Positions 17,970 to 61,980 of a stretch of 64,000 bases of DNA are shown piece by piece. The notes under the pieces are model-generated. The model saw only the letters and a program-made list of their open reading frames with translations. It did no database searches and was not told the origin of the DNA. Source of the stretch: Thalassolituus oleivorans MIL-1 (GTDB lineage Bacteria; Pseudomonadota; Gammaproteobacteria; Pseudomonadales; Oceanobacteraceae). Every line of letters begins with the position of its first letter. The stretch's first letter is position 1. The stretch covers positions 2,649,501 through 2,713,500 of the forward strand of contig NC_020888.1 of NCBI RefSeq assembly GCF_000355675.1. The letters run 5' to 3'. Made by a program: the position numbers and the translations under genes.

Positions 17970-18611
17970 CTACCGGCAGAGCCTTTTCACTTGGTTCCAC
18001 GGCAGGCGCGTGCAGAGGGTGTTGCGGAGGTTATTTTTCACAGCAAAATCGTATAAATACTTGCGAGTATTGTGATTAGAACTCGCAATGCGGTTAACAG
18101 CCCAGGTTTGCTGGTCTGGTGTGAGTTTGTGCCAAGATAGGATAACAATCTCTAAGGTATTACGATCAATGCCACGTTCGTTCGGCGCAAGAGTCATTAA
18201 CGTATTAATACGCGCTTGAAGCACTTCAGCAGGCGAACCTAGCAAATATTCAACATCGAGTGCCCCCACATGATAATAAGGCCACAACGGACGTTCTTCT
18301 TGGGCCGCTTGCCAATGCACTAATGCTTGCTGCAAATCCTCTTGCCACTCGTCTTGCCCTTTTAATAAAGCACGAGCACGCAAAAATCTTGCTAATGCAG
18401 CATCAACTTCGGGATTATTAAAATTCAGTGAATTAGCTAATTGCAGATAGGCATTATCGTCTAGCGTCACTTCTTGGTCGGAACCAATCGCCAATAGCGT
18501 TGATACCAAACCAAGATGCGCCGCCAATAAAGCAGGTACTAACAGCAACCACCACGACTGGCGAACCAGTCGTGAACCTAGGCTAGCTTTGTTCTGTGGT
18601 TGTGTAGCCAT
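17970..18611 (-). CDS. Membrane-anchored protein at the end of the exopolysaccharide operon
   Basis: A 213-residue protein of unknown function. After a short cytoplasmic segment, one hydrophobic stretch (about 20-42, WWLLLVPALLAAHLGLV) would anchor it, leaving a soluble helical domain outside the cytoplasmic membrane; helices of TPR type are possible (NSLNFNNPEVDAALARFLRAR). The ATG at 18611 lies inside the end of the upstream kinase gene (29-base overlap), indicating translational coupling and a job in polymer assembly. Its TAG stop is the TAG of a GTAGGA motif at the edge of the downstream repeat zone. Confidence 0.75.
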   Translation of the reverse strand: MATQPQNKASLGSRLVRQSWWLLLVPALLAAHLGLVSTLLAIGSDQEVTLDDNAYLQLANSLNFNNPEVDAALARFLRARALLKGQDEWQEDLQQALVHWQAAQEERPLWPYYHVGALDVEYLLGSPAEVLQARINTLMTLAPNERGIDRNTLEIVILSWHKLTPDQQTWAVNRIASSNHNTRKYLYDFAVKNNLRNTLCTRLPWNQVKRLCR

Positions 18612-20796
18612 AACCGTCGTAATATCCCGAGTAGTGACCGCCGTAGCGAGCTTCTTTCTCAACGTCCATTTGATTCAGCAACACACCCAAGATACGAGCG
18701 TTCGAGTCACGCAAACGCGCAATGCCCGATGTAATCAATTTATCTTTGGTCTCATCGGCTTTAACTACGTACACCACACCATCAACCAGTGTCGATAGAT
18801 AGGTCGCGTCACTTACCGCATGTGTCGGTGCAGAGTCGATAATAATGCGGTCATAACGGCCTTTCAGTGTTTCTAGCAAAGCACTGAAGTTTTTCGACGC
18901 CAACAACTCTAACGGATTTGGTGGGATTGGCCCCGCCGGAATCACATCAATACCAAGATCAGCTACATGGTGAATACAATCATCCAACGTCTCAGGGTAG
19001 GCAACAGCGTTCGATAAACCACGGCTATTTGGCGGCATATTCAGCTTACGGGCAACCGTAGGACGACGCATATCGGCATCGATTAAAACAACTTTTTCCA
19101 TCTGACCAAAAGCTTCCGCCAAGTTGGTCGATGTTGTTGTTTTACCTTCGCCCGGAACAGACGACGTGAACAGCATTACCTGAGCCTTATTTTCTAAACT
19201 GGCCAAGGTCAAACTGGTACGCAAAGTACGAATCGATTCTTGGAAGCCATGATCCGATCCCTCGACAAAGGCCCGCACTAAAGTTGCATCCAATTTATTA
19301 GGATCAATTTTCTTATTGCGCTTACCGCTAGCAATTAACGGCACAATACCCAATAACGATACGCCTAATTTACGATCAACATCTTCAGCATTTTTTACCG
19401 TCGCATCTAACGCATCCAACAAGAACGCCAATGCAATACCAAACATCGCACTCACTACCAACGCCAAAGCCACAATCAGCTTTTTATTCGGTTTAATTGG
19501 CTCTTTTGGTAATACTGCAGGATCAATAACACGCGCGTTTGCAGTTTGCAGATCACCAGTTACTGAAGTTTCCGAAATACGATTAAAGAAGGTCTCATAC
19601 AAACCACGATTAGCACGTACCTCACGCACATAATCATTTAATTCAAATTCGGTACGGTTCATATCGCGAATACGTGCCTTCGTGCTATTTAAGGCACTCT
19701 GCAATGAATTCTCTTTCGACTTAGCGACCAAGAAATCATTTTCAATACCGTTAGCAATACGCTTCATTTGCGTAAATACAGAATCACGAACCGCATCTAA
19801 ATCCGATTGCGCCGCAATCATACGCGGATGCAAAGGCCCATAACGCTTCGAAAGCTCCGATACTTTTAATTCAGCATTGGTTTCGTTTTCGCGCAGTTTA
19901 ACCACCAAAGGATTATTTAAAATCGACGGTAAGCTGCTTAACGATTCGTAGGTTTGCTCAGCCAAAGACTGCAACTGACGATACGTACCTTCCAATTCTA
20001 AACGACGGCTACGCGCATCAATTAAACGCTCCGTAATTTGATCGGTTTCTTTCGCAACTAAGGTATTAACACCTTCAATATCGACCAGATCATTCTGTTC
20101 GCGATACGTTTGTAATTTGCGCTCTGACTCAGACAATTTATCTTTCAAACCACCCAAACGATCCGACAACCACACAGCCGCTTGCTGAGTTAACCCCACA
20201 CGCGCTTCCATCTGGCTTTCGATATAACCCTCAGCCACAGCGTTTGCCGCTGTGTAGGCTAATTCAGGAGATTGACTCTCGACCGAAATCTTAACCAACT
20301 GCGTTTTACGAACCGGTTCAATGGAAATTGCTTGCCAAAAATTCTCGATGGTTTTGGCTAACACTTCGTCTGCTGTTGGCGGCTCTTTGGCACCCAAAAT
20401 AAATTCACGTAACGAAAAAGACTTACCGTTCGCTTCGTGATACGGGTTAAATTCTGGGTTGTCCACCAAGCCAAGCTGCAGCACAACACGCTTGGCTAAC
20501 TCGCGAGATTTTAGAATTTCAAATTGGGTTAAAAAATATTCAGAAGACTGACCCGACAAGCCGTACACTTCTTCAATCGAAAGAATCTTAGCTTCTTCCG
20601 ATTCAATCAATAAAGTCGCGGTTGCGCGGTAAATCGGGGTCATCACTAAAGCAACTAACACCGCAATAATGGTGGCAATTACGCTTAGGGCCATGATTTT
20701 GCGCGTCTGACGACGAATCACATGCCAATAATGGGTTAAATCAATTACTTCTACTGCGGCAGCATTATTCATTAAATTCGCTCTGCTCTTATCCAT
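18583..20796 (-). CDS. Polysaccharide co-polymerase with tyrosine autokinase (Wzc/GumC-like)
   Basis: A 737-residue inner-membrane protein. A Wzz-type domain with first membrane segment (about 33-53) is followed by a long periplasmic coiled-coil region, a second membrane segment after PKEPIKPNKKLIVALA (about 440-465), and a cytoplasmic BY-kinase domain. The kinase has Walker A VPGEGKTTTS, Walker A' LIDADMRRPT and Walker B RIIIDSAP. The C-terminus RYGGHYSGYYDGYGY is a tyrosine cluster for autophosphorylation. Such proteins control chain length and couple polymerisation to outer-membrane export. It follows the export protein by 12 bp. No partner low-molecular-weight tyrosine phosphatase (Wzb) is seen in the window. 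Confidence 0.93.
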   Translation of the reverse strand: MDKSRANLMNNAAAVEVIDLTHYWHVIRRQTRKIMALSVIATIIAVLVALVMTPIYRATATLLIESEEAKILSIEEVYGLSGQSSEYFLTQFEILKSRELAKRVVLQLGLVDNPEFNPYHEANGKSFSLREFILGAKEPPTADEVLAKTIENFWQAISIEPVRKTQLVKISVESQSPELAYTAANAVAEGYIESQMEARVGLTQQAAVWLSDRLGGLKDKLSESERKLQTYREQNDLVDIEGVNTLVAKETDQITERLIDARSRRLELEGTYRQLQSLAEQTYESLSSLPSILNNPLVVKLRENETNAELKVSELSKRYGPLHPRMIAAQSDLDAVRDSVFTQMKRIANGIENDFLVAKSKENSLQSALNSTKARIRDMNRTEFELNDYVREVRANRGLYETFFNRISETSVTGDLQTANARVIDPAVLPKEPIKPNKKLIVALALVVSAMFGIALAFLLDALDATVKNAEDVDRKLGVSLLGIVPLIASGKRNKKIDPNKLDATLVRAFVEGSDHGFQESIRTLRTSLTLASLENKAQVMLFTSSVPGEGKTTTSTNLAEAFGQMEKVVLIDADMRRPTVARKLNMPPNSRGLSNAVAYPETLDDCIHHVADLGIDVIPAGPIPPNPLELLASKNFSALLETLKGRYDRIIIDSAPTHAVSDATYLSTLVDGVVYVVKADETKDKLITSGIARLRDSNARILGVLLNQMDVEKEARYGGHYSGYYDGYGYTTTEQS

Positions 20797-20808
20797 TTAG
20801 CTTAATCG

Positions 20809-21360: not shown

Positions 21361-21436
21361 GAACACTTCCCGTTGACTCAAACTTCAAAAACCAAAACGG
21401 CCTGACTTGGCAGGCCGTTCGGAAGGCGCTTAGCAA

Positions 21437-29014: not shown

Positions 29015-29222
29015 TCATGCTTCAATCGGCACTGCTCGCTTCGCTCCCTGAGTACCTCCTACAGTTCAAAACTGAGTACCTCCTACAGTTCACATCCGAA
29101 TATTTAGATTCAACAAACGGTGTTTCTGTAAACGAACGGTGTTTCTGTAGGAGCGACTCAACGAACGTTTTGTCTGTAGGAGCGACTCAACGAACGCTTT
29201 TTGTTCGTAGTCGCGACAAGCG
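29015..29222. repeat. GTAGGAG-type repeat array splitting the rml genes
   Basis: The segment contains CGGCACTGCTCGCTTCGCTCC, two GAGTACCTCCTACAGTT units, and three GTAGGAGCGACTCAACGAACG-type modules, one of them complete with TTCGTAGTCGCGA. No gene. It abuts the rmlA stop codon, which is itself the TAG of a GTAGG motif. Confidence 0.85.
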
Positions 29223-29228
29223 GTGAAC

Positions 29229-30098
29229 CTACAACAACCCCCGCAAATACGCACCATACCCGGTGTGCTTCAACGCTTCGGCTTGCTGCGCTAACTGCTC
29301 GTTGCTTATCCAACCCTGATGAAAGGCAATCTCTTCCAAACAGGCGATCTTCAATCCTTGGCGCTGTTCTATGGTTTGCACAAACATACCGGCATCCAAC
29401 AATGAATCATGCGAACCGGTATCCAACCATGCAAACCCACGCCCTAACATATCAACCTGCAATTCGCCCAAGGCCAAATAGGCGTTATTTACATCGGTTA
29501 TTTCTAGCTCACCGCGGGCGGAAGGTTTAATATTTCGGGCAATATTCACCACGCGATTGTCGTAAAAATATAGCCCAGTAACCGCGTAATTTGATTTTGG
29601 ATGCTTCGGCTTTTCTTCGATATTTAATGCCTTACCATCGGCATCAAACTCAATTACGCCATATTTTTCTGGCTCACCAACATGATACCCGAATACCGTT
29701 GCGCCGTGTTTGCGCGCCACAGCACGATGTAAAATATCGCTAAAATATTGGCCGTAAAAAATATTATCACCCAGCACTAAGGCTACCGACGAATCGCCAA
29801 TAAATTGTTCACCAATTAAAAACGCCTGCGCCAACCCATCTGGCGATGGCTGTGCTGCATAACTTATTGCCACACCAAATTGACTACCATCACCCAACAA
29901 GCGCTGAAATGCAGGCATATCGTCCGGTGTGGTAATAATTAAAATATCGCGAATCCCCGCCAGCATTAATACCGACAGCGGGTAATAAATCATCGGTTTA
30001 TCATAAATTGGCAATAGCTGTTTCGACACACCCAAGGTTATCGGATGCAAGCGCGTGCCAGCACCACCGGCTAAAATGATGCCTTTATAATTGCTCAT
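29229..30098 (-). CDS. rmlA: Glucose-1-phosphate thymidylyltransferase
   Basis: First enzyme of dTDP-L-rhamnose synthesis. The 289-residue protein carries the nucleotidyltransferase signature [11 protein letters not shown] (residues 10-20), plus [13 protein letters not shown] and [11 protein letters not shown]. The ATG at 30098 overlaps the rmlB stop (30095), and a longer reading to 30161 is not needed. The stop TAG is part of a TTGTAGGTT sequence at the edge of the repeat array. Confidence 0.96.
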
Positions 30099-31165
30099 CG
30101 TACTGGGTTCATCCCGATTCGCTCTAACTGATAATTGCCATTCAATACATCCTGCCACCACGGTTCATTCGCTAAATACCAACGTACGGTTTTAGCCAAA
30201 CCAGAGGCAAACGTCTCTTTAGGCTGCCAGCCCAACTCGTGCTGAATTTTACTCGCGTCGATGGCATAACGCACATCATGGCCGGGACGATCATCGACAA
30301 AGGTAATTAAATCGTTAAATCGAGCAATACCCACCGGTTTATTGTCCACAAGGGTATTTAATAAATCGCAAATAGCATTCACTACATCTAAATTCGTTTG
30401 TTCGTTGTGGCCGCCAATATTATACGTCTCGCCCGCCTGGCCAGCGGTTAACACGCGATACAAAGCCGCCGCATGATCATCCACATACAACCAATCACGC
30501 ACTTGCAGACCATCGCCGTATACAGGCAACGGCTTCCCCTGCAAGGCATTTAAAATAATGTGAGGAATTAATTTCTCAGGAAACTGGCACGGGCCATAAT
30601 TATTCGAACAATTCGATACCACAATTGGCAAACCATACGTTCGGCCCCAAGCACGCACCAAATGATCGGCTGCGGCTTTGGAAGCGGCATACGGCGAACT
30701 CGGCGCATATGCGGTTTGCTCAGTAAACTTAACAGCGCTTAAACCTAAATCGCCGAATACCTCATCGGTAGACACATGATGAAAGCGAAACGCCGCTGCA
30801 CGTTCTGGCGGCATGGCTTGCACGTAATCACGAACCACCTCCAACAAGTTAAACGTACCAACGACATTGGTTTGAATAAAATCCGCTGGGCCATCAATCG
30901 AACGATCCACATGGCTCTCGGCGGCTAAATGCATAATGGCATCCGGTTGAAACCGCGTAACGACCGCCCTAAGCTCAAGTAAATTGCAGATATCCGCCTG
31001 TACAAACTGGTAGCGTGGCGAATCCGCAACCGCCGACAACGACGCCAAATTCCCCGCGTAAGTGAGGGCATCGAGGTTAAATACTTCATCTTCCGTGTGC
31101 TCAATCACGTACCGGATCACAGCGCTACCGATAAACCCCGCACCGCCCGTAACCAATAACCGCAT
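30095..31165 (-). CDS. rmlB: dTDP-glucose 4,6-dehydratase
   Basis: Second enzyme of the dTDP-L-rhamnose pathway. The 356-residue SDR protein has TGGAGFIG at the N-terminus, [11 protein letters not shown], the [10 protein letters not shown] segment, and the catalytic YAASK. The ATG at 31165 gives the usual MRLLVTGG beginning. Its 5' side is a 570-bp gap largely filled with repeats, so the promoter must lie among or beyond them. Confidence 0.96.
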
Positions 31166-31212: not shown

Positions 31213-31600
31213 GTAGCGGCGATTCAACGAACGTTTTGTCTGTAGGAGCGACTCAACGAACGGTGTTTCTGTAGGAGCGACTCAACGAACGTTTTTTGTT
31301 CGTAGTCGCGATGAGCGGTGAGAATATCATCAATGCTAATCGGCACTGCTTCAATCGGCACTGCTCGCTTCGCTCCCTGAGTACCTCCTACAAATTCTGG
31401 ACTTCTGTAGGAGCGACTCAACGAACGTTTTTTGTTCGTAGTCGCGATGAGCGGTGAGAATATCATCAATGCTAATCGGCACTGCTTCAATCGGCACTGC
31501 TCGCTTCGCTCCCTGAGTACCTCCTACAGTTCAAAACTGAGTACCTCCTCCAGTTCACGACACCTCCTACAGTTCACGAAACCTCCTACAATTTAAACCG
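31213..31600. repeat. Composite GTAGGAG-type repeat array
   Basis: Two full composite units (GTAGGAGCGACTCAACGAACG ... TTCGTAGTCGCGATGAGCGG ... CGGCACTGCTCGCTTCGCTCC ... GAGTACCTCCTAC) and extra partial modules. These are followed by diverged short ACCTCCTACAGTTC units up to 31600. An 88-codon open frame across the array is a by-product of the repeats. Confidence 0.88.
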
Positions 31601-31736: not shown

Positions 31737-32153
31737 ATGGAAAACCACGACATTCGCTGGCAGCAACGCTTTCAGAATTTTCGACGAGCTTTCACTCTGC
31801 TCAGAGAAGCATTGGAAAACGATCTCGACACCCTAAACCAGCTAGAAAAAGAAGGCATAATCCAGCGCTTTGAATACACTTTCGAACTTGCTTGGAAAGT
31901 CCTTAAAGACAAAATGGAATTTGACGGTCTTGAGCTCAACCAAATTTCTCCAAAAGCTGTCGTCCGACAGGCGTTTCAAGCAAAATACATCTCCGATGCC
32001 GACTGCTGGATGCGCATGATAGGCGATAGAAACTTAATGAGTCACACATATGACTTTGCCAAGTTCGAAGCCGTTATCAAAACCACCAAGGCCGAATACA
32101 TGCCGATGCTCGACGAGTGGTACACAGATTTATTAGAAGAACTGCAACAATGA
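31737..32153 (+). CDS. HEPN-type protein of a HepT/MntA-like pair (cassette 1)
   Basis: A 138-residue helical protein of the HI0074 / nucleotidyltransferase substrate-binding family. It starts IRWQQRFQNFRRAF and carries EQ-like KEGIIQRFEYTFELAWKVLKD and the HEPN RNase-like motif R-x4-H-x-Y (RNLMSHTY). In characterised HEPN/MNT modules the HEPN protein is a toxin RNase and the MNT partner neutralises it by adding nucleotides to the Tyr of this motif. Whether this member is toxic is unknown. Its stop overlaps the next start as ATGA. Confidence 0.88.
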   Translation: MENHDIRWQQRFQNFRRAFTLLREALENDLDTLNQLEKEGIIQRFEYTFELAWKVLKDKMEFDGLELNQISPKAVVRQAFQAKYISDADCWMRMIGDRNLMSHTYDFAKFEAVIKTTKAEYMPMLDEWYTDLLEELQQ

Positions 32154-32449
32154 CCTACACCCTGCCAGAACATACCCGAAATGAAATTAAGCAGATAATC
32201 AGCGGCTATCCAGAAGTTGAGCGTGCGACACTATTCGGATCTCACGCAAAGGGAACAGCCACAGCAAGAAGCGATATCGACATCGCCCTACAAGGGCGGC
32301 AACTCAACCGCTTCGTACTTGCAGACATAGCATTATCGTTTGACGACAGCGATATTCCTTTGCAGATTGACCTACAAAATTATTCAGACATCAAAAATAC
32401 AGCCTTAAAAGAGCACATCGACCGTATCGGTATTCAGTTATACCCATAA
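32150..32449 (+). CDS. MNT-type nucleotidyltransferase (cassette 1)
   Basis: A 99-residue minimal nucleotidyltransferase. The pol-beta-fold active site GSHAKGTATARSDIDIAL carries the GSx10DxD pattern with both metal-binding Asp residues. It is the MntA/HI0073 partner of the overlapping HEPN gene and probably its antitoxin. The start at 32150 is set by the ATGA overlap. A repeat array begins at its stop. Confidence 0.9.
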   Translation: MTYTLPEHTRNEIKQIISGYPEVERATLFGSHAKGTATARSDIDIALQGRQLNRFVLADIALSFDDSDIPLQIDLQNYSDIKNTALKEHIDRIGIQLYP

Positions 32450-32790
32450 ATCGGCACTGCTCGCTTCGCTCCCTGAGTACCTCCTACAAATTCTGGACTT
32501 CTGTAGGAGCGACTCAACGAACGTTTTTTGTTCGTAGTCGCGATGAGCGGTGATTATATCAACAACGTAAATCGGCACTGCTTCAATCGGCACTGCTCAC
32601 TTCGCTCCCTGAGTACCTCCTACAAATTCTGGACTTCTGTAGGAGCGACTCAACGAACGTTTTTTGTTCGTAGTCGCGATGAGCGGTGATTATATCAACA
32701 ACGTAAATCGGCACTGCTTCAATCGGCACTGCTCGCTTCGCTCCCTGAGTACCTCCTACAGTTCAAAACTGAGTACCTCCTACAGAGGCT
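32448..32790. repeat. Composite GTAGGAG-type repeat array
   Basis: Two nearly identical composite units of about 130 bp, each from CGGCACTGCTC-CTTCGCTCC through GAGTACCTCCTACAAATTC to GTAGGAGCGACTCAACGAACG and TTCGTAGTCGCGATGAGCGG, followed by a third partial unit. The last GTAGG on the minus strand supplies the stop codon of the next gene. Confidence 0.88.
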
Positions 32791-32798
32791 ATTCGCGC

Positions 32799-33650
32799 CT
32801 ACAGCTTCAACTCCGGCGGTGGGCTGCCCAATTTCGATACGACGATATTCGGTTCACCCAGATCCGCATGGCCTTTGCGCCATTTGGGGTATGTCCACTG
32901 CTCTGGCTCGCGAAATTCGGATACTTTGGCATTCGGCCATCGCGCCTTCACCGCAGCCATACGTGCTTTAACCTCGTCGCTGAGGGTGAGCTTTACCGAC
33001 CGGCATATCTGTCCTCTTACCTTTTGCACAAATGGCTCAGGGGCGTATCCCAAGGTGTTGTGCATTACACGTAATATATGGCGCTCATCTAATGCGGTTA
33101 TGGCAAAGCTGGTAAATTGCATATTGTCGTAGGGGGTTGGTTTTAATATCGCGTCGATATCGTTACGCATTTCGCAATTAATCCACGTAGAATCGCCACG
33201 ACAAAACACGCGCCAATTAACCGGTGCTATTTTCTTCCAAAACCCCGGATTACCCGGCCCCAGCCGATGCAGCAAGCGCATCACCACCTGCTCGAAATGC
33301 GCAGGATTTAAACAATTCATACCGTTCGGCAAGCAATCCACCCGCTCTACCATCGCTACAACACCGATAGTGCCAATACTCTTCACACCGCACGGCGTCG
33401 AGTAAAAATCCAAATCACGATTAAATAATGTCGCGCTACAAAAATCAGGTGATGCCCGCGAAAAATAGCGCAGGTTGTGAATGTCTAAACGTAAATCAAT
33501 GGGGTTAAGTTTTTCTACCGTACGGAAATCAAGATACGCCGGAACCTGAAATTCAAAACGCGAACCCGATAAATTAACACGAATGAGCTGAGGGTTTTCT
33601 AACCCCGGAAGGTATGGATGATGGCGCGAAGCCGAAAGAAGTTTAAGCAT
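32799..33650 (-). CDS. Protein of unknown function, paralogue of the 289-aa protein at 40781-41650
   Basis: A 283-residue soluble protein I do not recognise. It aligns along its whole length with the protein at 40781-41650. Shared segments include ASR--P-L-GL--PQ at the N-terminus, RVDCLP-GM-CLNP-HFEQVVMR--HRLGPG, the LD-R-ILR-M motif, RSLKLTLS, and S-FREPEQW--PKWR near the C-terminus. No signal peptide or membrane segment is seen. Unlike its paralogue it has no partner gene downstream. Its leader AGCAGGGATT-ATG is shared with two other genes of the zone. The stop TAG lies in CTGTAGG, a repeat edge. Confidence 0.8.
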   Translation of the reverse strand: MLKLLSASRHHPYLPGLENPQLIRVNLSGSRFEFQVPAYLDFRTVEKLNPIDLRLDIHNLRYFSRASPDFCSATLFNRDLDFYSTPCGVKSIGTIGVVAMVERVDCLPNGMNCLNPAHFEQVVMRLLHRLGPGNPGFWKKIAPVNWRVFCRGDSTWINCEMRNDIDAILKPTPYDNMQFTSFAITALDERHILRVMHNTLGYAPEPFVQKVRGQICRSVKLTLSDEVKARMAAVKARWPNAKVSEFREPEQWTYPKWRKGHADLGEPNIVVSKLGSPPPELKL

Positions 33651-34064
33651 AATCCCTGCTGTATTAAATAGAGTTCCTCCTGCATTAACCGCATAAAAAC
33701 CGGCGCTTAAACAGCAAGCGCCGGGGTAGCACTACAGGAGCAATCAATCTCAGCACGCGCTTATTTAACTCAAGACGTAATGCACAAACGACCAACACAA
33801 TCGTTCGAATATCGACACCTGATACAACTAAATATCAGACCGCAAAGCGACACAACAGGGAGACAACAGGGAGACAACACAACACCTTATTTAAAGGCCC
33901 CATCCCTAGACGCATCCACACTCTGTACTACACAGCTTTCGTGCTAGGATGATCCGTTACATGGTTATCAAACCGGCTATGGCAGTAGCCGACCAAGACA
34001 CAATAGGAGAATTGCATCTATTGCGCAAGTATTTGCGTGATTTATGTATATTTATATTTTTTAT
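33651..34064. other. Non-coding gap, no recognised element
   Basis: About 400 bp between divergent genes. I see no gene, tRNA or member of the GTAGGAG repeat family here. There is a short direct repeat (ACAACAGGGAGACAACAGGGAGACAAC) near 33850. The promoters of the 283-aa gene and the XRE-like gene should lie here. Confidence 0.5.
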
Positions 34065-34319
34065 ATGGAATCGATTGTTGATAGGTTTCTATTATTGCTA
34101 AGTGCCGAAGGCGTAAAAATGCCTTGGCTAGCAGCACAAACAAATATTGAAGCAAAACGCTGGCACACGATAAAACAACGCAAAGGCATGCGCACCAGCG
34201 AACTAGAAGCTGTTATCGCTATTTGGCCAGAATATGCTTACTGGCTAACCACCGGCAAAGAGATTCCCGATTCAGGGCAAATCAGCCCGAGTACCAAGCA
34301 AGCAATGCGTCGGATGTAG
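34065..34319 (+). CDS. Small XRE/phage-repressor-like DNA-binding protein
   Basis: An 84-residue protein with a helix-turn-helix-like core (LAAQTNIEAKRWHTIKQRKG) followed by W-EYAYWLTTGKEIPDSGQISP, a tail common in small prophage-type regulators of Pseudomonas and relatives. The ATG at 34065 is preferred over 34044, which lacks support. Its target is unknown; the divergent 283-aa gene is a candidate. The stop TAG is the TAG of GTAGGAGCG, the first bases of the following repeat array. Confidence 0.65.
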   Translation: MESIVDRFLLLLSAEGVKMPWLAAQTNIEAKRWHTIKQRKGMRTSELEAVIAIWPEYAYWLTTGKEIPDSGQISPSTKQAMRRM

Positions 34320-34655
34320 GAGCGATCCGGGCGGCGTTTCGTTTGTTCGCGACATTGTTCGCGAAAAAGTTTCGCTCCTACAGACGGAATTTGTAGGAGC
34401 GACTCAACGAACGCTTTTTGTTCATAGTCGCGATGAGCGGTGAGAATATCATCAATGCTAATCGGCACTGCTCGCTTCGCTCCCTGAGTACCTCCTACAG
34501 TTAAAGCCTGAGTACCTCCTACAGTTAAAGCCTGAGTACCTCCTACAGTTAAAGCCTGAGTACCTCCTACAGTTCAAACCTGAGTACCTCCTACAGTTCA
34601 AACCTGAGTACCTCCTACAGTTAAAACCTGAGTACCTCCTACGATAAAGATATTT
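34316..34655. repeat. GTAGGAG-type repeats with a seven-copy 24-bp tandem array
   Basis: After two inverted-repeat modules, the unit CTGAGTACCTCCTACAGTTAAAGC (24 bp) is repeated seven times with GAGTA at 34486, 34510, 34534, 34558, 34582, 34606 and 34630, with AAAGC, CAAAC and AAAAC variants. The array ends at the manB stop codon, itself a repeat-type TAG. Confidence 0.92.
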
Positions 34656-34660
34656 CGCTC

Positions 34661-36088
34661 CTACAATACCTTAACCTTACTCAATACCTGCACAACCAAC
34701 TGCTGCGCTTTTTCATCGCTGGTTGATTCGGCATAACACCGCAATTCAGGTGCATTGCCTGAAGGCCGTAGATGAACTACATCGTCATTCGATAACGTCA
34801 TGCGCAAACCATCGGTTACATCAACACGCTCAACGGTTAAGCCCTCAAACCCTAATAACGCAATCAGGCCAGCGGTATCGTTGGTGTAGGTTTGGATAAT
34901 CTGCTTACTTTTTTCGGTCGGGAAATTCTGAATACGATCACTGGCCGAAAAACGCACGGTGCAGTCGCTCACCAATGCAGAAATCGGCTTATTTGAGGTA
35001 GTTGCAGCCAACAACATAATGGCAGGCAGCACGGCATCGCGGGTTGGTAATGCTTTTAATACTTTATTATTTATCTCGGTATCCGAGCCTAATAAAAAAC
35101 CGCCGTTGGCCTCAAAACCTGCCACAGATGCATATTCGTTAGCCAGCTGCGCAAATTCAGCAATGACATAAGGCGAGCCAATTTTAGTGCGCTCTACCAA
35201 CTTAAATGCCTGTGATAATTCGATAGACGAATTGCAGCTTACGGGCACAGCCAGCGCTTCTATACCCAGCTGTTTAGCACACAACAAACCGAGAATATCG
35301 CCGCGCAGCCAAACACCGTTTTCATCGGCTACCAATGGGCGGTCGCCATCACCATCCGTCGAGAAAATAGCGTCAAAGCCATACTCTTTAGACCAATTAA
35401 TCGCTTTTAGCTGATCATCGGCAGACACCGCTTCGGTATCAATCGGCACAAACTGATTGCTGCGCTCTAGTGGGGTTACTTTCGCGCCCAGTTGTTCAAA
35501 CAATGCTTGGTATAAATCTCTACCCGCACTGGAATGTTCGTAAATACCAATATGTTTACCGGTTAAAAACGGCTGATCGAACAACGACAAATAGCGCTGA
35601 ATATATTCTTCTGCTGCTGCCTTAGAAACCGTTAATTCATTGAGATTTTCCAGCGCACGAAAGCCGACTTCAATAGTTAAAATAGACTGCTCGTCGGCTT
35701 TGGTGATCTCGCCGTCGGGACGATAAAACTTCAAACCATTGCGGTCGAAAGGAATATGACTGCCAGTAACCATAATGCTTGGGATCTTGCGTTCCATTGC
35801 AGCAAATGCCAGCGCAGGCGTAGGAATAACACCGTAATAAATAACCTGAATTCCCTGTTGCATTAACGCAGCGGCACAGGCTTGCGCCATCGCATAACTG
35901 CTTGGGCGGTTATCAATAGCAATAGCCAAAGAATCAACGGTGAATTGGCCTTTTAGGGTGTGAAGAAATGCCAACGAAAACGCCGCGCACACATCCGGCG
36001 TAAACTGCTCCACCAAGCCGCGTGCACCGCTCGTACCGAAGGCAACACCGCTGTTGGCTAATACATCATGTGATTCTAATAACGACAT
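34661..36088 (-). CDS. manB: Phosphomannomutase (ManB/CpsG-like)
   Basis: A 475-residue alpha-D-phosphohexomutase converting mannose-6-phosphate to mannose-1-phosphate. It has FGTSGARG near the N-terminus and the metal-binding loop STDGDGDRP. The phosphoserine loop is [12 protein letters not shown] (Ser110-His111), a variant of the usual TASHNP seen in some phosphomannomutases. The phosphate-binding [12 protein letters not shown] is near the C-terminus. It starts one base after the manC stop, so the pair is co-translated for GDP-mannose. Its stop TAG belongs to TTGTAGGAGCG at the repeat edge. Confidence 0.92.
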
Positions 36089-37675: not shown

Positions 37676-38330
37676 ATGTAGGAGCGATCTTGGCGGCGTT
37701 CCGTTTATCCGCGAGGGCGTTGATTCATCCGCGACATTGTTCGCGTGTAGGAGCGGATCTTATCCGCGACATTATTCGCGTGTAGGAGCGATCTGGGCGG
37801 CATTCCGTTTATCCGCGACATTGTTCGCGAAAAAGTTTCGCTCCTACAGACGGAATTTGTAGGAGCGACTCAACGAACGTTTTTTGTTCGTAGTCGCGAT
37901 AAGCGGTGAGAATATCATCAATGCTAATCGGCACTGCTCGCTTCGCTCTGTAGGAGCGGATCTTATCCGCGAACAGCCTCGCGAAAAAGTTTCGCTCCTA
38001 CAGACGGAATTTGTAGGAGCGACTCAACGAACGTTTTTTGTTCGTAGTCGCGATAAGCGGTGATGATATCAATGCTTTAATCGGCACTACTTTATTCGGC
38101 ACTGCTCGCTTCGCTCCCTGAGTACCTCCTACAGATTCTGAGTACCTCCTACAGATTCTGAGTACCTCCTACAGATTCTGAGTACCTCCTACAGATTCTG
38201 AGTACCTCCTACAGATTCTGAGTACCTCCTACAGATTCTGAGTACCTCCTACAGATTCTCAGTACCTCCTACGGATTCTGAGTACCTCCTACAGTTCAAA
38301 CCTGAGTACTTCCTACAGATCTTTGAATAC
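37676..38330. repeat. Large GTAGGAG-type array including a nine-copy 20-bp tandem repeat
   Basis: The first 420 bp hold hairpin modules of three kinds: GTAGGAGCGGATCTTATCCGCG, GCGAAAAAGTTTCGCTCCTAC and GTAGGAGCGACTCAACGAACG. From 38118 the 20-bp unit CTGAGTACCTCCTACAGATT follows, with AGTACCTCCT at 38121 and every 20 bases to 38281 (nine copies, two with single changes), and a degenerate copy near 38304. No gene. Confidence 0.94.
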
Positions 38331-38413
38331 CTACCTCCCCGTAGGTTGGGCTGAGCGGAGAGATGCCCAACAAAAGGCCTGTTCGCGAAAAAGTTTCGCT
38401 CCTACGGTGCGAA

Positions 38414-38440
38414 CAACTATATACTTTGCGAAAGCATCAA
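38414..38440 (+). promoter_or_regulatory. Conserved leader/promoter of HEPN-MNT cassette 2
   Basis: CAACTATATACTTTGCG and AAAGCATCAA repeat the leader of cassette 1 with few changes. TATACT at 38420-38425 lies 36 bases before the start codon, against 35 in cassette 1. The upstream GTTGGGCTGAGCG...GATGCCCAAC hairpin is also shared. Confidence 0.5.
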
Positions 38441-38455
38441 ACAGTAAGATCTCAC

Positions 38456-38875
38456 ATGAACTTAGACATCCGCTGGCATCAACGCCTTGCTAATTATGCC
38501 TCTGCCTTCAACGAACTTGATGAAGCCGTTGCTCTTAACAACCAACGACCACTCAGTAAATTAGAAGAACAAGGTCTAATTCAAGCATTTGAATACACCT
38601 ACGAGCTTGCATGGAACAGCATTAAAGACTTCTACCAAGCTCAAGGTGAAAGTGATATTCAAGGTAGCCGCGATGCAATACGAATGGCGTTCCGCCGAGG
38701 GCTAATCACCGACGGTGATCTTTGGATGGAGATGATAAAAAGCCGCACGCTAACCTCCCACACATACAACCGCGAAACAGCGCGTTTAATTGTTAGCCAA
38801 ATATTAAACGACTATCACAACGCATTTAAACTCCTGCTAACAAACCTACAAAACAGAAAGCAAGAAGAGACATGA
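38456..38875 (+). CDS. HEPN-type protein of a HepT/MntA-like pair (cassette 2)
   Basis: A 139-residue paralogue of the protein at 31737-32153. It shares IRWHQRLANYASAF, the EEQGLIQAFEYTYELAW core, MAFRRGLITDGDLWMEM, and the R-x4-H-x-Y motif as RTLTSHTY. The start at 38456 matches the paralogue's N-terminus; a longer reading from 38363 runs back into repeat sequence. The stop overlaps the MNT start as ATGA. No strong ribosome site is visible. Confidence 0.87.
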   Translation: MNLDIRWHQRLANYASAFNELDEAVALNNQRPLSKLEEQGLIQAFEYTYELAWNSIKDFYQAQGESDIQGSRDAIRMAFRRGLITDGDLWMEMIKSRTLTSHTYNRETARLIVSQILNDYHNAFKLLLTNLQNRKQEET

Positions 38876-39177
38876 AAACGCTGATAAATACCGGATTAAA
38901 AGCCGAAGACATTGAAGCGATTAAACGTGTCATGCAGCAACACCCTGGAATTATCAGCGTTGTACTTTATGGCTCCAGAGCAAAAGGCAATTATCGTAAT
39001 AACTCCGACATAGATCTTTGCTTGATAGCTCCAAACATGAACTACAGCGAATTTAGCCAAATATCGCTTGAACTTGACGACCTCATGCTGCCTTACGACA
39101 TTGATCTTAGCCTGCAACACCACATCGAGAACCAAGAGTTGTTAGAACATATCGCAAGAGTAGGAAAACCTTTGTGA
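38872..39177 (+). CDS. MNT-type nucleotidyltransferase (cassette 2)
   Basis: A 101-residue minimal nucleotidyltransferase with active site YGSRAKGNYRNNSDIDLCL (GSx10DxD). It differs substantially from the cassette 1 partner outside the active site, so the two cassettes are old paralogues or separate arrivals, not a fresh duplication. Likely antitoxin to the overlapping HEPN gene. Confidence 0.9.
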   Translation: MKTLINTGLKAEDIEAIKRVMQQHPGIISVVLYGSRAKGNYRNNSDIDLCLIAPNMNYSEFSQISLELDDLMLPYDIDLSLQHHIENQELLEHIARVGKPL

Positions 39178-39597: not shown

Positions 39598-40758
39598 CGC
39601 CGCCCAATCTTCATTACCCTTGCCAAAGGTTGCCGCAAACGCTCCTTGAATATTGCGCGCATAGGCACTGTTCTTCTTGAACGATTCTTTAACTACCAAA
39701 TACCCAGCCAGTAAAAAGCCACTCGCCGCAATAGCGCTTTGGGTACTAAACGCCATATCCAAACTCGTAGCCGCACCGCTAAGACCAACCGCTCCTATGC
39801 CGCCACCCAGCGTTAACTTAGCACCAATAGACTTCAACTCACCAACCGCCTCAGAACGTGCATCTGGGTTGTGTATGACATCGCGCTTATTAATATTGAT
39901 ACCCTGAAAAACAAGGCCCGATTTTTTACACAAGGCTTCCAAATCATTTTTACTGGTCGTTTTACCGCGTGGGTTCGAGAAAAATACCGACTGCTTTTCC
40001 AAACCACGTTGAGCAACATGAATATCACTCGATGCAGGGTTGCTATTCAGATAATTCAACGCCTTAACAAAGCACGCTGCGCCTTCGCCGTGTACTAACC
40101 AGCGCAAGCTTTCTTGTTTTCGTTGCGCCATTTGAATTAAAGAAATCAAATGGTCAAGTTGGTCTTTGCTGGTGAATTCGTTATTCATCCAAAACAACGA
40201 ATAATGATTACTGGGCTGACGATAATAGCTAATTTCATCATTATTTAACCAAGCGTTTTCAATATGCGTGCCTAGCTTCTCAGCTGCTGTATCTGCATCA
40301 TCAAACTTCCCTGCGACCGCCGCCATGTGCGCCATAACCCCCCACTTATGGCTTAACTCCATCGACACTTCAGGTCTGCTACCATCCGGTATGGACCAAG
40401 CTCTTTCATCAACATCCCATTTTGCTTGATACAAACCCGCTGCTTTATGCTTAGGCGCTTCGAGTGCTTCATCGACCACAAATAAGTCTACCTGCACGTC
40501 GCCGTTATCGAGGATTTCATAAAACATTTTGCACGGCCCAAAGATTTTTTGCTGCATCATGCGCCGATTACCATCGGGCAAAATAGCCAATGCATATAAG
40601 GCCCGTAACATAGTGGTCATGTAATAATTACCCGCATGACCAGCTTTCAGTTTCTTCCAAGAACCGCCTGCGTCTTTGCGCACAAACACGCTGCGGTTAA
40701 TGTTGGTGTTTTCGCCTTTTTGAACAATCATTTCCCATTCGGCTGAATTTAGGGTCAT
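39595..40758 (-). CDS. Unknown protein with C-terminal hydrophobic hairpin; partner of the 289-aa protein
   Basis: A 387-residue protein I do not recognise. Residues 1-300 are polar and look globular. Residues 314-356 form two hydrophobic Gly/Ala-rich stretches (GGGIGAVGLSGAATSL and SAIAASGFLLAGYLVV), which suggest a membrane-inserting hairpin. A basic and polar tail ends the protein. There is no signal peptide. The ATG at 40758 has AAGGAGAG upstream. It begins 22 bp behind the 289-aa gene and is surely in its operon. Such a hairpin occurs in some pore-forming effectors, but no secretion marker is seen, so function is open. Confidence 0.8.
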   Translation of the reverse strand: MTLNSAEWEMIVQKGENTNINRSVFVRKDAGGSWKKLKAGHAGNYYMTTMLRALYALAILPDGNRRMMQQKIFGPCKMFYEILDNGDVQVDLFVVDEALEAPKHKAAGLYQAKWDVDERAWSIPDGSRPEVSMELSHKWGVMAHMAAVAGKFDDADTAAEKLGTHIENAWLNNDEISYYRQPSNHYSLFWMNNEFTSKDQLDHLISLIQMAQRKQESLRWLVHGEGAACFVKALNYLNSNPASSDIHVAQRGLEKQSVFFSNPRGKTTSKNDLEALCKKSGLVFQGININKRDVIHNPDARSEAVGELKSIGAKLTLGGGIGAVGLSGAATSLDMAFSTQSAIAASGFLLAGYLVVKESFKKNSAYARNIQGAFAATFGKGNEDWAA

Positions 40759-40780
40759 GTCTACTCTCCTTGTATTAACT

Positions 40781-41650
40781 TTATTTACGGGTATTAGATT
40801 TATCTTCAAATTTAAATTCGGGTGCTGGGCTACCCGCTTCTAGAATCACGATATGCGGTTCGCCTTCGCTGGTACGGCCATTGCGCCATTTGGGCTGAAT
40901 CCATTGTTCTGGCTCACGATATTCCGAGATTTTGGCATCGGGCCATTTGTTTTTAGCTTCGGCTATCCGGCGTGTTAAATCCGCACTTAAGGTTAGCTTT
41001 AAGCTGCGGCATATTTGGTCGCGAACGCGACGAGAAAATTCGACCGGTGGCGACCCTAAATTAAGAAACATAATGCGCAGAATATAACGATCATCCAACG
41101 GCGTAACCGCATAGCTTGAATATCTAGTAAAGTCGTGGGAGGTAAACTCTGTTACGCCAGTGAGATCGCGATGCATCTCATACACCACCCATGGAAGGTG
41201 GTCTGTTGGCAACAGCCGCCATGCTCTTGGTCCTATTCTCCCCTTGCACCCCCCTGGACCTAGGCGATGAATAAAGCGCATCACCACCTGCTCAAAATGC
41301 TCAGGATTCAGGCACGTCATCCCTTCGGGTAAGCAATCAACACGGTCTATCGCTACCTTAACTGAGATAGTACCCATGCTGGACGACAAGCCAAACGGCG
41401 CGGCATATAAGTCCAGATCACGGCCCATCAACAAGGCGGTTGAAAAGGTGCCATCATCAGGATCAAAGCCTTCGGTAGTGTATAAATTGAAGTGACTCAG
41501 CGGCGCTTGCTGCTCAGGCAACGATGCATCGTTATGCGCAGGCACATCAAGCTCCAGCTTGGAACCGGAGATATCCATCTCAATATGTTGAGGCTTATTT
41601 AAGCCTGCAAGAAAGGGGCGCTTGCGTGAGGCAAAAAGACGATTCAGCAT
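40781..41650 (-). CDS. Unknown protein, paralogue of the 283-aa protein at 32799-33650
   Basis: A 289-residue soluble protein of an unrecognised family, first gene of a two-gene operon with the 387-aa protein. It shares segments with the 283-aa protein throughout: RVDCLPEGMTCLNPEHFEQV, HRLGPG, RSLKLTLSAD and EYREPEQWIQPKWRNG. It begins MLNRLFASRKRP, the same twelve residues that open the Imm11-like gene at 42009-42638. A conserved leader AGCAGGGATT lies before the ATG. The 5' gap holds another repeat array. Confidence 0.8.
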   Translation of the reverse strand: MLNRLFASRKRPFLAGLNKPQHIEMDISGSKLELDVPAHNDASLPEQQAPLSHFNLYTTEGFDPDDGTFSTALLMGRDLDLYAAPFGLSSSMGTISVKVAIDRVDCLPEGMTCLNPEHFEQVVMRFIHRLGPGGCKGRIGPRAWRLLPTDHLPWVVYEMHRDLTGVTEFTSHDFTRYSSYAVTPLDDRYILRIMFLNLGSPPVEFSRRVRDQICRSLKLTLSADLTRRIAEAKNKWPDAKISEYREPEQWIQPKWRNGRTSEGEPHIVILEAGSPAPEFKFEDKSNTRK

Positions 41651-56803: not shown

Positions 56804-56834
56804 GTGCTGGGTTCCTTATGCTGCGCGCTGTTAT

Positions 56835-57597: not shown

Positions 57598-58085
57598 TTG
57601 TAGGAGGTGTTCTGGATTCTGTAGGAGGTGCTCAGGATTCTGTAGGAGGTGCTCTGGATTCTGTAGGAGGTACTCAGGGAGCGACAGCGAGCAGTGCCGA
57701 TTGGTTAGGGTTGATCGCGACTACGAACAAAAAGCGTTCGTTGAGTCGCTCCTACACAAAAAACGTTCGTTGAGTCGCTCCTACATAAAAAGCGTTCGTT
57801 GAGTCGCTCCTACAGGAAAGATTGATCAAATGAGGAGGTATCTGTAGGAGGTACTCAGGGAGCGATAGCGAGCAGTGCCGATTGGTCAGGGTTGATCGCG
57901 ACTACGAACAAAAAACGTTCGTTGAGTCGCTCCTACGGGAAAGATTGATCAAATGAGGAGATATATGTAGGAGGTACTCAGGGAGCGACAGCGAGCAGTG
58001 CCGATTGGGCAGGGTTGATCGCGACTACGAACAAAAAGCGTTCGTTGAGTCGCTCCTACAGGGTTGGGGTCGCTCCTACGGGTGC
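57598..58085. repeat. GTAGGAG-type repeat array, reversed orientation
   Basis: Four short GTAGGAGGTGCTC-GGATTCT-type units open the array. Three composite units follow: GTAGGAGGTACTCAGGGAGCGA, CAGTGCCGATTGG, GATCGCGACTACGAAC, GCGTTCGTTGAGTCGCTCCTAC. The order is the reverse complement of that in the 29-42 kb arrays. An 86-codon open frame here is a by-product. Confidence 0.9.
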
Positions 58086-58945: not shown

Positions 58946-58966
58946 TTAGTTTAGGTAGTTGAGTGT

Positions 58967-58994
58967 AAAAAACCCGGTTCGCCGGGTTTTTTTT
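58967..58994 (+). terminator. Rho-independent terminator of the Ala-rich protein gene
   Basis: AACCCGG-TTCG-CCGGGTT, a seven-base-pair stem with a stable tetraloop, is followed by an unbroken T-run of over nine bases. It lies 22 bases after the stop codon. Confidence 0.95.
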
Positions 58995-59027
58995 TGGCTG
59001 TTGTTTGGTGGAAATCAGGCACCGTAG

Positions 59028-59425
59028 GAGCGATCCGGGCGGCGTTCCGTTTATCCGCGACGCCAATCGCGAAAAAGTTTCGCTCCTACATAAAATACGT
59101 TCGTTGAGTCGCTCCTACATATAATACGTTCGTTGAGTCGCTCCTACATATAATACGTTCGTTGAGTCGCTCCTACATGAAAAGATTGATTCATCAAATT
59201 TGAAGAAATCTGTAGGAGGTACTCAGGGAGCGGCAGCGAGCAGTGCCGATTGGTCAAGGTTTATCGCGACTACGAACAAAAAGCGTTCGTTGAGTCGCTC
59301 CTACATAAAAAACGTTCGTTGAGTCGATCCTACAGAAATACCGTTCGTTGAGTCGCTCCTACATAAAAAACGTTCGTTGAGTCGATCCTACATATAATAC
59401 GTTCGTTGAGTCGCTCCTACAGGAT
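59028..59425. repeat. GTAGGAG-type repeats with 29-bp tandem units
   Basis: GTAGGAGCGATCCGGGCGGC and GCGAAAAAGTTTCGCTCCTAC form the first hairpin. Three units of 29 bp (TACGTTCGTTGAGTCGCTCC...) follow with CGTTGAG at 59102, 59131 and 59160, then one composite unit and several more GTTCGTTGAGTCGCTCCTAC copies, some altered to GTCGATCCTAC. Confidence 0.9.
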
Positions 59426-59479
59426 GAACATTCCTACCTACGTGGTAATATTCGTTTTTTGTTTCAACAAGGATGATTT

Positions 59480-60835
59480 ATGACCCGTTGGGGCTGTTTT
59501 CAGGCGTTGCTGTTTATTCTTCCCCTTCCTTTTGGTGGTGCTGCTGATTGGGTGTGGCCTTGGTTTGCTGTTACGGCGATGGTGTTGCTGGCGTTGGATT
59601 TGCGCGAGCGTTTGTTATTTCAATCGGTTAATCATCTTCCTTCTTTGACTCTTCCTGTTGCGTTTACGCGTGCTTTGCCGGTGTTGGGGTTGTTGGCTGC
59701 GGTGCAGGTTTGGGTGTTCTTCCAATGGTTATGGCCGACGTCGGTGTCGGTTTTTGAAACGTATCAAAGCTTATTAAAGGGCATTGGCCTTACGTCGTTT
59801 TTTGCGTTGGCTTTGTTGAATTTAGATTCGCGCAGGCGGGTAACACGGGCCATTTGGATTGTGGTGTTGGCAGCGGCGTTTCAGGCTGTTTTTGGTGCGC
59901 TGATGGTACTCACTGGTTGGGAGTTGGGCTTTTTTATCGAGAAGTCGGCTTATCGCGGTTTGGCAACGGGTACATACATTAACCGCAATCATTTGGCAGG
60001 CTACTTAGAGATGGCGCTGGCGCTGGGTATTGGGCTGTTGTTGGCTCAGTCTACTCAGTATCGCGGATCGTTTCGCCAGCGTTTGCGCCAGTTGGTTCGC
60101 ATGTTGCTAAGCACTAAGGTGCTGTTGCGTTTATTGCTGGCGATTATGGTGATTGCCTTAGTGCTTACGCGCTCACGCATGGGTAATACGGCATTTTTTG
60201 CCAGTTTGATGATTACCGGTGGCTTGGCCTTGGTGTTGATGCGCAATAAGACGTTGTCGACGACAATTCTATTATCGAGCTTGCTGGTGATTGATATTGC
60301 GATTGTGGGTACGTTTTTTGGTGTTGAAAAAGTGGCGGAGCGTTTGCAAAACACGACGTCTGAAACCGAGAGTCGCGATGAGGTAACCCGCGATACCTTG
60401 CAAATTGCCCGCGATCATTTACTGGCGGGGATCGGGGCGGGCACGTTTATTTATAGTTATCCTGCTTATAAAAGTGATGACATTAAGGCCGACCGTATTT
60501 ACAACAATGCGCACAACGATCATGCGCAGTTTATGGCTGAATTTGGATTGCCGGCATTTTTGCTGTTGGCGCTAGCGGTGTTGATCAGCATCTGGTGGGC
60601 AATCATGGCGATGGTTAAACGTAACAGTGAGCTCTTTAAAGGAGTAGGATTCGGGGCTTGCATGGGGATTATTGCATTGCTGATTCATTCTGCGGTGGAT
60701 TTTAACCTTCAGATCCCTGCTAATGCCTATATGTTTGTGCTGTTGCTGGCTTTAGCTGCAGTGGCTAGGTGGACTCCACACAAATCGGAGAAGGCACCTG
60801 AAATAAGGAGGAGCCGGAGCGCTCATAACGGATGA
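59480..60835 (+). CDS. O-antigen ligase / Wzy-type membrane protein
   Basis: A 451-residue inner-membrane protein with about eleven membrane segments. The large loop near residues 290-355 has ETESRDEVTRDT and the AHNDHAQFMAEFGLP segment, characteristic of the O-antigen ligase / Wzy_C family. It could ligate polymer to an acceptor or polymerise it. A CCGC-rich codon use and G+C level differ from the A+T-rich Wzy-like gene at 53-54 kb. Its 3' end overlaps the phosphatase gene as ATGA, so the two form an operon. Confidence 0.85.
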   Translation: MTRWGCFQALLFILPLPFGGAADWVWPWFAVTAMVLLALDLRERLLFQSVNHLPSLTLPVAFTRALPVLGLLAAVQVWVFFQWLWPTSVSVFETYQSLLKGIGLTSFFALALLNLDSRRRVTRAIWIVVLAAAFQAVFGALMVLTGWELGFFIEKSAYRGLATGTYINRNHLAGYLEMALALGIGLLLAQSTQYRGSFRQRLRQLVRMLLSTKVLLRLLLAIMVIALVLTRSRMGNTAFFASLMITGGLALVLMRNKTLSTTILLSSLLVIDIAIVGTFFGVEKVAERLQNTTSETESRDEVTRDTLQIARDHLLAGIGAGTFIYSYPAYKSDDIKADRIYNNAHNDHAQFMAEFGLPAFLLLALAVLISIWWAIMAMVKRNSELFKGVGFGACMGIIALLIHSAVDFNLQIPANAYMFVLLLALAAVARWTPHKSEKAPEIRRSRSAHNG

Positions 60836-61491
60836 AATTAAAAGCTACACTTCTCAAATTAGAAAAAAACACTCAAGGCCGTGATTTTGTGGTGGGTGAT
60901 CTGCATGGTCATGTTACTAAATTACATGATCAGTTGGCGGCTCTTAATTTTAACTCTGCTGTAGATCGCGTTATTTGTGTTGGTGATTTAATTGATCGCG
61001 GGCCTGAGTCGGCTGAGGCACTTAATTTATTAAACGAGCCTTGGTTTTTTTCGGTGATTGGTAATCATGAATATTTGATGATTAACGGTATGCGTTATAA
61101 AAGCAGCCGTCATCGCATGGCATGGTTAAATCATGGCGGTGATTGGATTACGCAAACCTCCCCTGCCCTTTGGGATGATTGGTTTGATGCGATTGAGGCC
61201 TTGCCGTTGGCGATTGAGGTAGAAGGCAGCGACGGTAGCCGTTACGGAATTATTCATGCTGATTATCCGCATTCACATTGGCAAGAGTTTGGCCATTTAA
61301 CGCCCGAGTTGTTAGAGAAGTGTATTTGGTCGCGCAGCCAGTTTCAGTGCCAGTCGCGTCACGTGGTGAACGGAATTGATTATTTAATTCATGGGCATAA
61401 TGTGAATGGCGGCGATTTGCAGTTAGGGAATCGGTTTTATATCGAGCGCGGCGCGTATCTCGGTAATGATTTGGTGATTAAAGAGTTGTAG
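60832..61491 (+). CDS. PrpA-type metallophosphatase (PP family)
   Basis: A 219-residue metal-dependent phosphatase with the full PPP/PrpA motif set: GDLHGH, GDLIDRGPES, GNHE and HGHNVNGG, and catalytic His residues in IIHADYPHSH. Relatives are protein serine/threonine phosphatases or diadenosine tetraphosphatases. In the absence of a Wzb-type phosphatase it is the only protein-phosphatase-like gene near the tyrosine kinase; a functional link is speculative. The start overlaps the ligase-like gene. Confidence 0.88.
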   Translation: MKLKATLLKLEKNTQGRDFVVGDLHGHVTKLHDQLAALNFNSAVDRVICVGDLIDRGPESAEALNLLNEPWFFSVIGNHEYLMINGMRYKSSRHRMAWLNHGGDWITQTSPALWDDWFDAIEALPLAIEVEGSDGSRYGIIHADYPHSHWQEFGHLTPELLEKCIWSRSQFQCQSRHVVNGIDYLIHGHNVNGGDLQLGNRFYIERGAYLGNDLVIKEL

Positions 61492-61499
61492 TGGTGTTC

Positions 61500-61980
61500 T
61501 GTCGCGACTACGAACAAAAAGCGTTCGTTGAGTCGCTCCTACACAAAAAGCGTTCGTTGAGTCACTCCTACACAAAAAGCGTTCGTTGAGTCGCTCCTAC
61601 ACAAAAAGCGTTCGTTGAGTCGCTCCTACAGGAATTATTGATTCATCAGATTTGAAGAAATCTGTAGGAGGTACTCAGGGAGCGACAGCGAGCAGTGCCG
61701 ATTAATGGCGTTGATAGAATCATCGTTTATCGCGACTACGAACAAAAAGCGTTCGTTGAGTCGTTCCTACAGGAATTATTGATTCATCAGATTTGAAGAA
61801 ATCTTTAGGAGGTACTGTAGGAGGTACTCAGGGAGCGACAGCGAGCAGTGCCGATTGGCGGTGTTGATAGAATCACTGCTTATCGCGACTACGAACAAAA
61901 TACGTTCGTTGAGTCGCTCCTACATAAAATACGTTCGTTGAGTCGCTCCTACAAAAAAACATTCGGTTAATCGCTCCTAC
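61500..61980. repeat. GTAGGAG-type repeats with four-copy 29-bp tandem unit
   Basis: CGTTCGTTGAGTCGCTCCTACACAAAAAG units start 29 bp apart, with CGTTGAG at 61526, 61555, 61584 and 61613. Two composite units with GTAGGAGGTACTCAGGGAGC and GATCGC/ATCGCGACTACGAAC follow, then further single copies. The last CTCCTAC supplies the stop codon of flgL on the minus strand. Confidence 0.92.

Follow-up and report, generated by a model that had tools for sequence, protein, structure and literature searches.

REP feet serve as stop codons of neighbouring genes

The repeats in a 64,000-nucleotide stretch of the Thalassolituus oleivorans MIL-1 genome (NC_020888.1, positions 2,649,501 to 2,713,500; hereafter the window) are GTAG-tagged repetitive extragenic palindromic (REP) elements, and at the ends of three genes or open reading frames (ORFs) the TAG of an intact REP foot is itself the stop codon. 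These overlaps of foot and stop are a few instances of a strong and general effect, which is seen again around relatives of the REP-associated tyrosine transposase (RAYT) encoded beside the window. In the explanation that we favour, and that we hold to be probable from the sequence comparisons below, the TAG of a REP assumes the role of stop at the natural end of a gene or slightly beyond it, often after loss of the native stop, and most likely with neutral effect.

An earlier note on this DNA had placed six stop codons within GTAGG motifs, and all six are indeed TAG with a G before and a G after. Three of them, as the note had also proposed, are the TAG of an intact foot, GTAGGAGCG: that of flgL (61977-63215, minus strand; stop 61977-61979, foot 61972-61980), whose product scores above the cut-off of TIGR02550; that of a manB-like phosphomannomutase gene (34661-36088, minus strand; stop 34661-34663, foot 34656-34664); and that of a 91-codon ORF (34044-34319, plus strand; stop 34317-34319, foot 34316-34324), labelled XRE-like in the note, for which no Pfam or NCBIfam match was found at E 0.001. 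The broader proposal that the repeats join coding sequence exactly at the stop holds for these three intact feet and, in degenerate copies, for two further genes. The gene at 17970-18662 stops at what by eye is a degenerate foot of a second type (GTAGGAAGTAGTCAGG compared with GTAGGAGGTACTCAGG; 17958-17973, minus strand), and the gene of a 283-residue protein (32799-33650) stops in a REP-like stretch, GTAGGCGCGAATAGCC (32787-32802, minus strand), which is probably decayed, judging by its likeness to REP ends of sibling genomes. The proposal does not hold for rmlA (29229-30161, minus strand), where REP copies on the plus strand (29147-29228) face the gene end and the GTAGG at the stop lies in the 3' flank of an oppositely pointing REP, outside any foot. 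At the end of a 404-residue ORF (39595-40809, the '387-aa gene' of the note) the stop TAG is followed by CT and then by a REP foot (39584-39597, minus strand).

For a count over the window and a further 20 kb we used 73 ORFs of at least 90 residues, a greedy set that omits the gene at 17970 as overlapping its neighbour. For seventeen of these a foot lies on the same strand no more than 150 nt away, and in three of the seventeen foot and stop overlap exactly, compared with about 0.11 expected under uniform spacing (Poisson P ~2e-4). TAG is the stop of 8 of the 17 ORFs with a nearby foot versus 9 of the 56 others (P 0.018).

A collection of genomes from 84,980 species, each represented once, was then searched for RAYT relatives. 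At least 592 stretches matched, of which 473 passed confirmation; the best 80 form the set of named loci. These contain 1108 ORFs of at least 100 residues, of which 157 have a foot of the form GTAGGAG[CG] at a distance d of 0 to 120 from the stop. At d=0, where foot and stop overlap, lie 41 of the 157, from 26 loci, compared with 44 at all positions from d=1 to d=30 together (a mean of 1.5 per position) and 8 at the fullest other position. The spike persists when longer ORFs are required, with 35 at a minimum length of 150 residues and 22 at 200, and the 41 foot-stopped ORFs are made up of 12 RAYT genes and 29 others. REP feet serve as stops more often than other GTAG words in the same loci (41/665 versus 109/5731, P 3e-9). 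Foot and stop thus coincide well beyond what spacing would yield, both in the window set and in the 80 loci. A second peak, at d=13, consists of 8 genes, and four Xanthomonas loci contribute to it with a gene that seems to be orthologous among them. A control with GTGG feet gave 0/53 at d=0, which is uninformative on insertion since GTGG cannot give TAG.

Two points count against the explanation that we favour: ORFs rather than curated genes were counted, and short ORFs inflate the figures; and among 26 foot-near genes in stretches from six siblings there is a single overlap, in the manB of G002, so the excess within the genus rests on few cases. Together with the count of only three exact cases in the window, the sibling count is also what would favour chance, that is, G-preceded TAG stops coinciding with abundant repeats. 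Given the P value in the window itself, the height of the spike at d=0 over its neighbours and the preference for feet over other GTAG words, chance is hardly credible as an explanation, and for the pooled set it is refuted.

Proteins are mostly not cut short where their ends were compared

The earlier note had further suggested that the last codons of the affected proteins were changed by the repeats. The comparisons mostly do not support this: the FlgL end is unchanged, none of the RAYTs is shortened, and nine proteins with informative models extend to the model end or near it, whereas ManB and RmlA end a few codons short. We found flgL in eight sibling genomes. Six of them encode the same last 15 residues as this genome, in G005 two of the 15 differ with the end residue unchanged, and in G006 the contig ends too early. 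The flgL stops of the seven readable siblings are six TAA and one TGA, and because the end residue is the same in all seven, only the stop codon has changed here. A pre-existing GTAG as the target of insertion is conceivable but unsupported for flgL, the siblings having TAA or TGA.

Among the 80 RAYTs, 18 are stopped by the strict foot GTAGGAG[CG], 8 of them at the usual last residue and 10 after an extension of 1 to 11 residues. Five more end in GTAGG without the full foot, all at the usual residue, and the other 57 comprise 48 that end at the usual residue and 9 that are extended. Extension therefore goes with the strict foot (10/18 versus 9/62, P 0.0009), also when only one of five Xanthomonas rows is kept (P 0.026). 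Shortened RAYTs number 0/80, including 0/23 with a GTAGG stop, in a set retrieved in part through a C-terminal peptide pattern and selected by score, which may thus have missed shortened members.

For proteins other than RAYTs, 25 of the 29 foot-stopped ORFs were scanned against NCBIfam, and nine products score above the model cut-off. Eight of these (dephospho-CoA kinase, Nudix hydrolase, ZapE, HscA, YihG, LigA, MarR_EPS and dGTPase) leave at most three positions at the end of the model unmatched, LigA being aligned to residue 669 of 671 of a solved enzyme; the ninth, an AidB-like dehydrogenase, reaches position 520 of 540. Reckoned from these positions, the nine run 0 to 16 residues beyond the end of the model. 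The other 16 scanned ORFs have no match at E 1e-20, fall below the cut-off or match models (HsdR, UvrA) that are uninformative on the end.

Several results run counter to this picture, in addition to the way in which the RAYT set was assembled. ManB is here 2 to 5 codons shorter than the sibling proteins and RmlA at least 3 codons shorter, the siblings in both cases differing mutually, and RmlA is still aligned to 284 of the 286 positions of its model; comparison of 3' ends with siblings thus gives an unchanged end for flgL and ends a few codons short for manB and rmlA. The association of RAYT extension with the foot weakens under the looser GTAGG definition (10/23 versus 9/57, P 0.018), and the excess is lost when under that definition the five Xanthomonas rows are treated as one (6/19, P 0.18). 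The short ManB and RmlA ends are what would be expected if REPs landed inside the last codons and their TAG, read in frame, shortened the protein. We regard this as improbable, as none of the 23 GTAGG-stopped RAYTs is shortened (in a set biased to complete C-termini), the flgL end is unchanged and the nine modelled proteins are not shortened.

A possible route from REP insertion to stop codon

In the probable course of events, REPs would settle just 3' of genes, where harm is least. Loss of the few bases between the native stop and the REP, a route absent from the earlier note, would then let translation end at the TAG of the foot; alternatively, a REP landing in the last codon may end translation directly with its TAG. 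The foot-stopped state would be both harmless and stable, so that cases would accumulate there, and the effect of the takeover is most likely neutral rather than selected.

The 3' side of flgL is consistent with such a loss. In G001 and G008 the gene ends in TTG TAA, followed by 9 nt and GTAGGAG, so that the foot stands 13 positions further down; in G004 the foot at this distance is decayed, and in G003 the foot reads GTGGGAG and follows after 11 nt. In this genome the sequence reads TTG TAGGAG, which is exactly what would result if the sibling flgL ends lost 13 bases between their two GTA words. The same step of 13 bases is seen a second time among RAYT genes: in five Xanthomonas RAYTs (86-95% mutually identical) the foot lies 2 nt past the last conserved Leu codon, and in locus L125, whose RAYT is 70% identical to one of them, the gene ends in CTG TGA, followed by 12 nt and GTAGG, the DNA beyond the REP being alike by eye in L125 and Xanthomonas. 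As a stop right after that RAYT residue is the commonest state (61/80), it is simpler to suppose that the native stop was lost, which would set the direction of the change. It counts against this reconstruction that insertion and deletion are read from comparisons at the level of species and not from pairs of strains with and without the REP.

The overlap could also be produced by insertion directly. If the transposase cut after xT and pasted GTAG plus hairpin, a REP entering a terminal Leu codon (xTG) between its second and third bases would restore that codon, supply the TAG and leave the protein unchanged. A T does precede 453 of the 665 feet in the 80 loci and 117 of 131 in the cluster studied here, and in Marinomonas the REP is reported to be cut at a CT on its 5' or 3' side, GTAG being the proposed guide (PMC8266576). 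Leu is the last residue in 27 of the 41 foot-stopped ORFs, compared with 77 of the 951 without a foot, but this excess arises largely because T precedes most feet. Direct insertion moreover predicts that d=0 is filled about as often as nearby positions, not 41 times against a maximum of 8, and taken alone it leaves the extended ends of 10 of the 18 strict-foot RAYTs unexplained. We therefore hold it to be a possible route, though not the probable one.

Selection would offer another explanation, in that copies that restore or back up termination might be kept as useful to the gene. The overlap is kept in the five Xanthomonas RAYTs though the adjacent codons vary, as would be expected if it were useful. 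A useful second stop should, however, be found preferentially in frame, and feet at d=1-60 fall into the three phases 24, 24 and 23 times, nor is TAG clearly enriched among stops with a nearby, non-overlapping foot (28/116 versus 189/951 in the 80 loci). As in-frame feet are no commoner at these distances, a selected spare stop is rather unlikely.

The REP family and its presumed transposase lie close together

The foot word GTAGGAGCG occurs 62 times in the window, compared with 0.26 expected. At most of these sites an unpaired GTAG foot is followed by two spacer bases (GA) and a hairpin, for example GCGACT-CAA-CGAAC...GTTCG-T-AGTCGC. One 42-nt element (REP A) has a fold of -11.6 kcal/mol (z -4.35), with GTAGGA unpaired and the stem-loop behind it, and two 23-nt REPs likewise fold with an unpaired foot (z -3.20 and -2.85). 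A partner element, in opposite orientation and with a weak hairpin, carries the second foot type, GTAGGAGGTACTCAGG; the fold of this type (GTAGGAGGTACTCAGGG...) has a z of +1.04, which makes the hairpin doubtful. The copies occur as singles, as inverted pairs (fold -14.3 kcal/mol) and as tandems with spacings of 29 (5' half alone), 73, 123 and 136 bases. The repeats thus display what marks GTAG REPs, namely a palindrome of 20-40 bp flanked on one side by an unpaired GTAG, many near-identical copies that are mainly intergenic by ORF positions, and paired as well as tandem layouts.

A RAYT gene lies 5.6 kb to the right of the window (genome 2719118-2719573, minus strand). Its product, of 152 residues, matches NCBIfam NF047646 with 135 bits (cut-off 80) and also PF01797, and the residues H68, H70 and Y127 are invariant among 14 aligned RAYTs; we take the two histidines to be the HUH motif and the tyrosine to be the nucleophile. 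REP feet flank the gene on both sides (5358-5563 and 6164-6478 in locus L005, with the gene at 5615-6073), so that the features of a RAYT are all found: a Y1 transposase, the HUH motif, the catalytic Tyr and REPs on both sides. Judging by these features, it is most likely this RAYT that mobilises the REPs of the window. Among the matches listed, its top-scoring relatives come from Thalassolituus, Bacterioplanes and a Saccharospirillaceae bacterium.

The family is not dispersed genome-wide: 71 of the 107 genome copies of GTAGGAGCG lie within 2649552-2722475, a stretch of ~73 kb that makes up 1.9% of the genome and holds the RAYT near its right end. With a 21-mer (at most one mismatch) 48 of 58 copies fall into this stretch; the reversed GTAGGAGCG word has 27 matches genome-wide. 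A second, small cluster with the same REP words (8 feet; L006 6950-11719, genome 1261950-1266719) lies far from the RAYT.

The siblings G004 and G008 have RAYTs that are 47% and 46% identical to the one here, and another REP word is gathered in the homologous flagellar/glycan stretch that holds the RAYT (30/40 copies in G004, 24/43 in G008, with 11 more G008 copies grouped on another contig). That siblings with such diverged RAYTs also hold their REP word in the same region suggests that confinement lasts. It counts against this that the REP word is less common in G001 and G006, where only 4/12 and 0/5 copies are found on the RAYT contig, both assemblies being fragmented. In flagellar-region stretches of 20 to 84 kb each, feet number 138, 88, 86 and 33 in four species with a RAYT near flgL, and 7, 6 and 1 in three species without a match to this RAYT. 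A RAYT near flgL is also present in G001, G004, G006 and G008 (sibling loci L016, L018, L020), and the place of the RAYT relative to flgH differs between G000 and G008, which suggests either rearrangement or separate arrivals. On the 3' side of flgH (L068, L072 and L081, from G001, G004 and G008) the spacer and the REP position are common and the outer stems differ, the stems changing on both arms (GCGC.../...GCGC versus GCTATT.../...AATAGC). REP positions thus persist while their sequences turn over.

Tentatively, the foot as an absorbing end state, the lasting confinement and the change of REPs in place could be combined into a picture of locally homing, stop-capturing elements. Once its native stop was lost, a gene would depend on the TAG of the repeat, and a selfish repeat would be fixed in a host gene; if this is true, selfish repeats become fixed parts of host genes by way of stop codons.

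Relation to known REP systems

That GTAG REPs often provide a TAG stop codon was stated by Di Nocera, De Gregorio and Rocco (2013; PMC3733652), and the finding is therefore known in kind. Our elements resemble the super-family described there in their GTAG foot and hairpin, in their occurrence as singles, dimers and tandem groups and in their position near gene 3' ends. They differ in that the copies here lie mostly in ~73 kb, whereas most families described there are genome-wide, the blocks of T. roseum being exceptional. The overlap counts and the comparison of protein ends were made here; no such count was found in section 15 of that paper. A literature search that lacked most subscription papers returned neither a title nor an abstract dealing with the origin of stops from REP feet. 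What the present analysis adds is to turn a one-line remark into a countable effect, 41 ORFs at the overlap compared with 1.5 per neighbouring position in 80 loci, with proteins mostly not cut back where checked, and to offer a testable route by which repeats are fixed at gene ends.

Concentration of REPs near the transposase gene, as found here, is described in reports on a Thauera RAYT (PMC2817692) and on Marinomonas (PMC8266576). Of the two Marinomonas REPtrons, Ma and Mb, it is Mb that shares with our elements the two bases separating GTAG from the hairpin. The authors of these reports suggest a recent arrival, whereas here confinement is seen across siblings with diverged RAYTs. That the REPs of three related species cluster beside the RAYT is relevant to the question of whether a RAYT acts near its own gene. 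E. coli REPs lie within 15 nt of stop codons and may affect translation, according to work cited in PMC12306157. They share with ours the position at gene 3' ends, but there the REP is described behind the stop, while here the foot itself is the stop.

REP arrays and neighbouring genes in the window

Six REP copies with a spacing of 73 bases lie 3' of fliD (9500-13453) at 9095-9468 on the minus strand. In an array at 31242-31448 on the plus strand the 5' half is repeated in a 29-base tandem, and a 136-base unit is present as well. A mosaic array with paired REPs in both orientations occupies 37678-38055, 29-base half units are found together with 123-base units at 57747-58079 (minus strand), and an array at 59024-59420 also has 29-base half units. 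A further minus-strand array (61534-61980) fills the space between a phosphoesterase gene (60832-61491) and flgL.

The 283-residue protein encoded at 32799-33650 is 45% identical to the G002 counterpart of a 289-residue protein encoded at 40784-41650, which suggests that the two genes are diverged copies; no Pfam match was found for either. Two toxin-antitoxin-like gene pairs of HI0074/MntA-like nucleotidyltransferases (NTase_sub_bind and Polbeta) are found at 31737-32449 and 38363-39177. Both pairs adjoin REP arrays, and the products of the second are 93-95% identical to proteins of the sibling G002.

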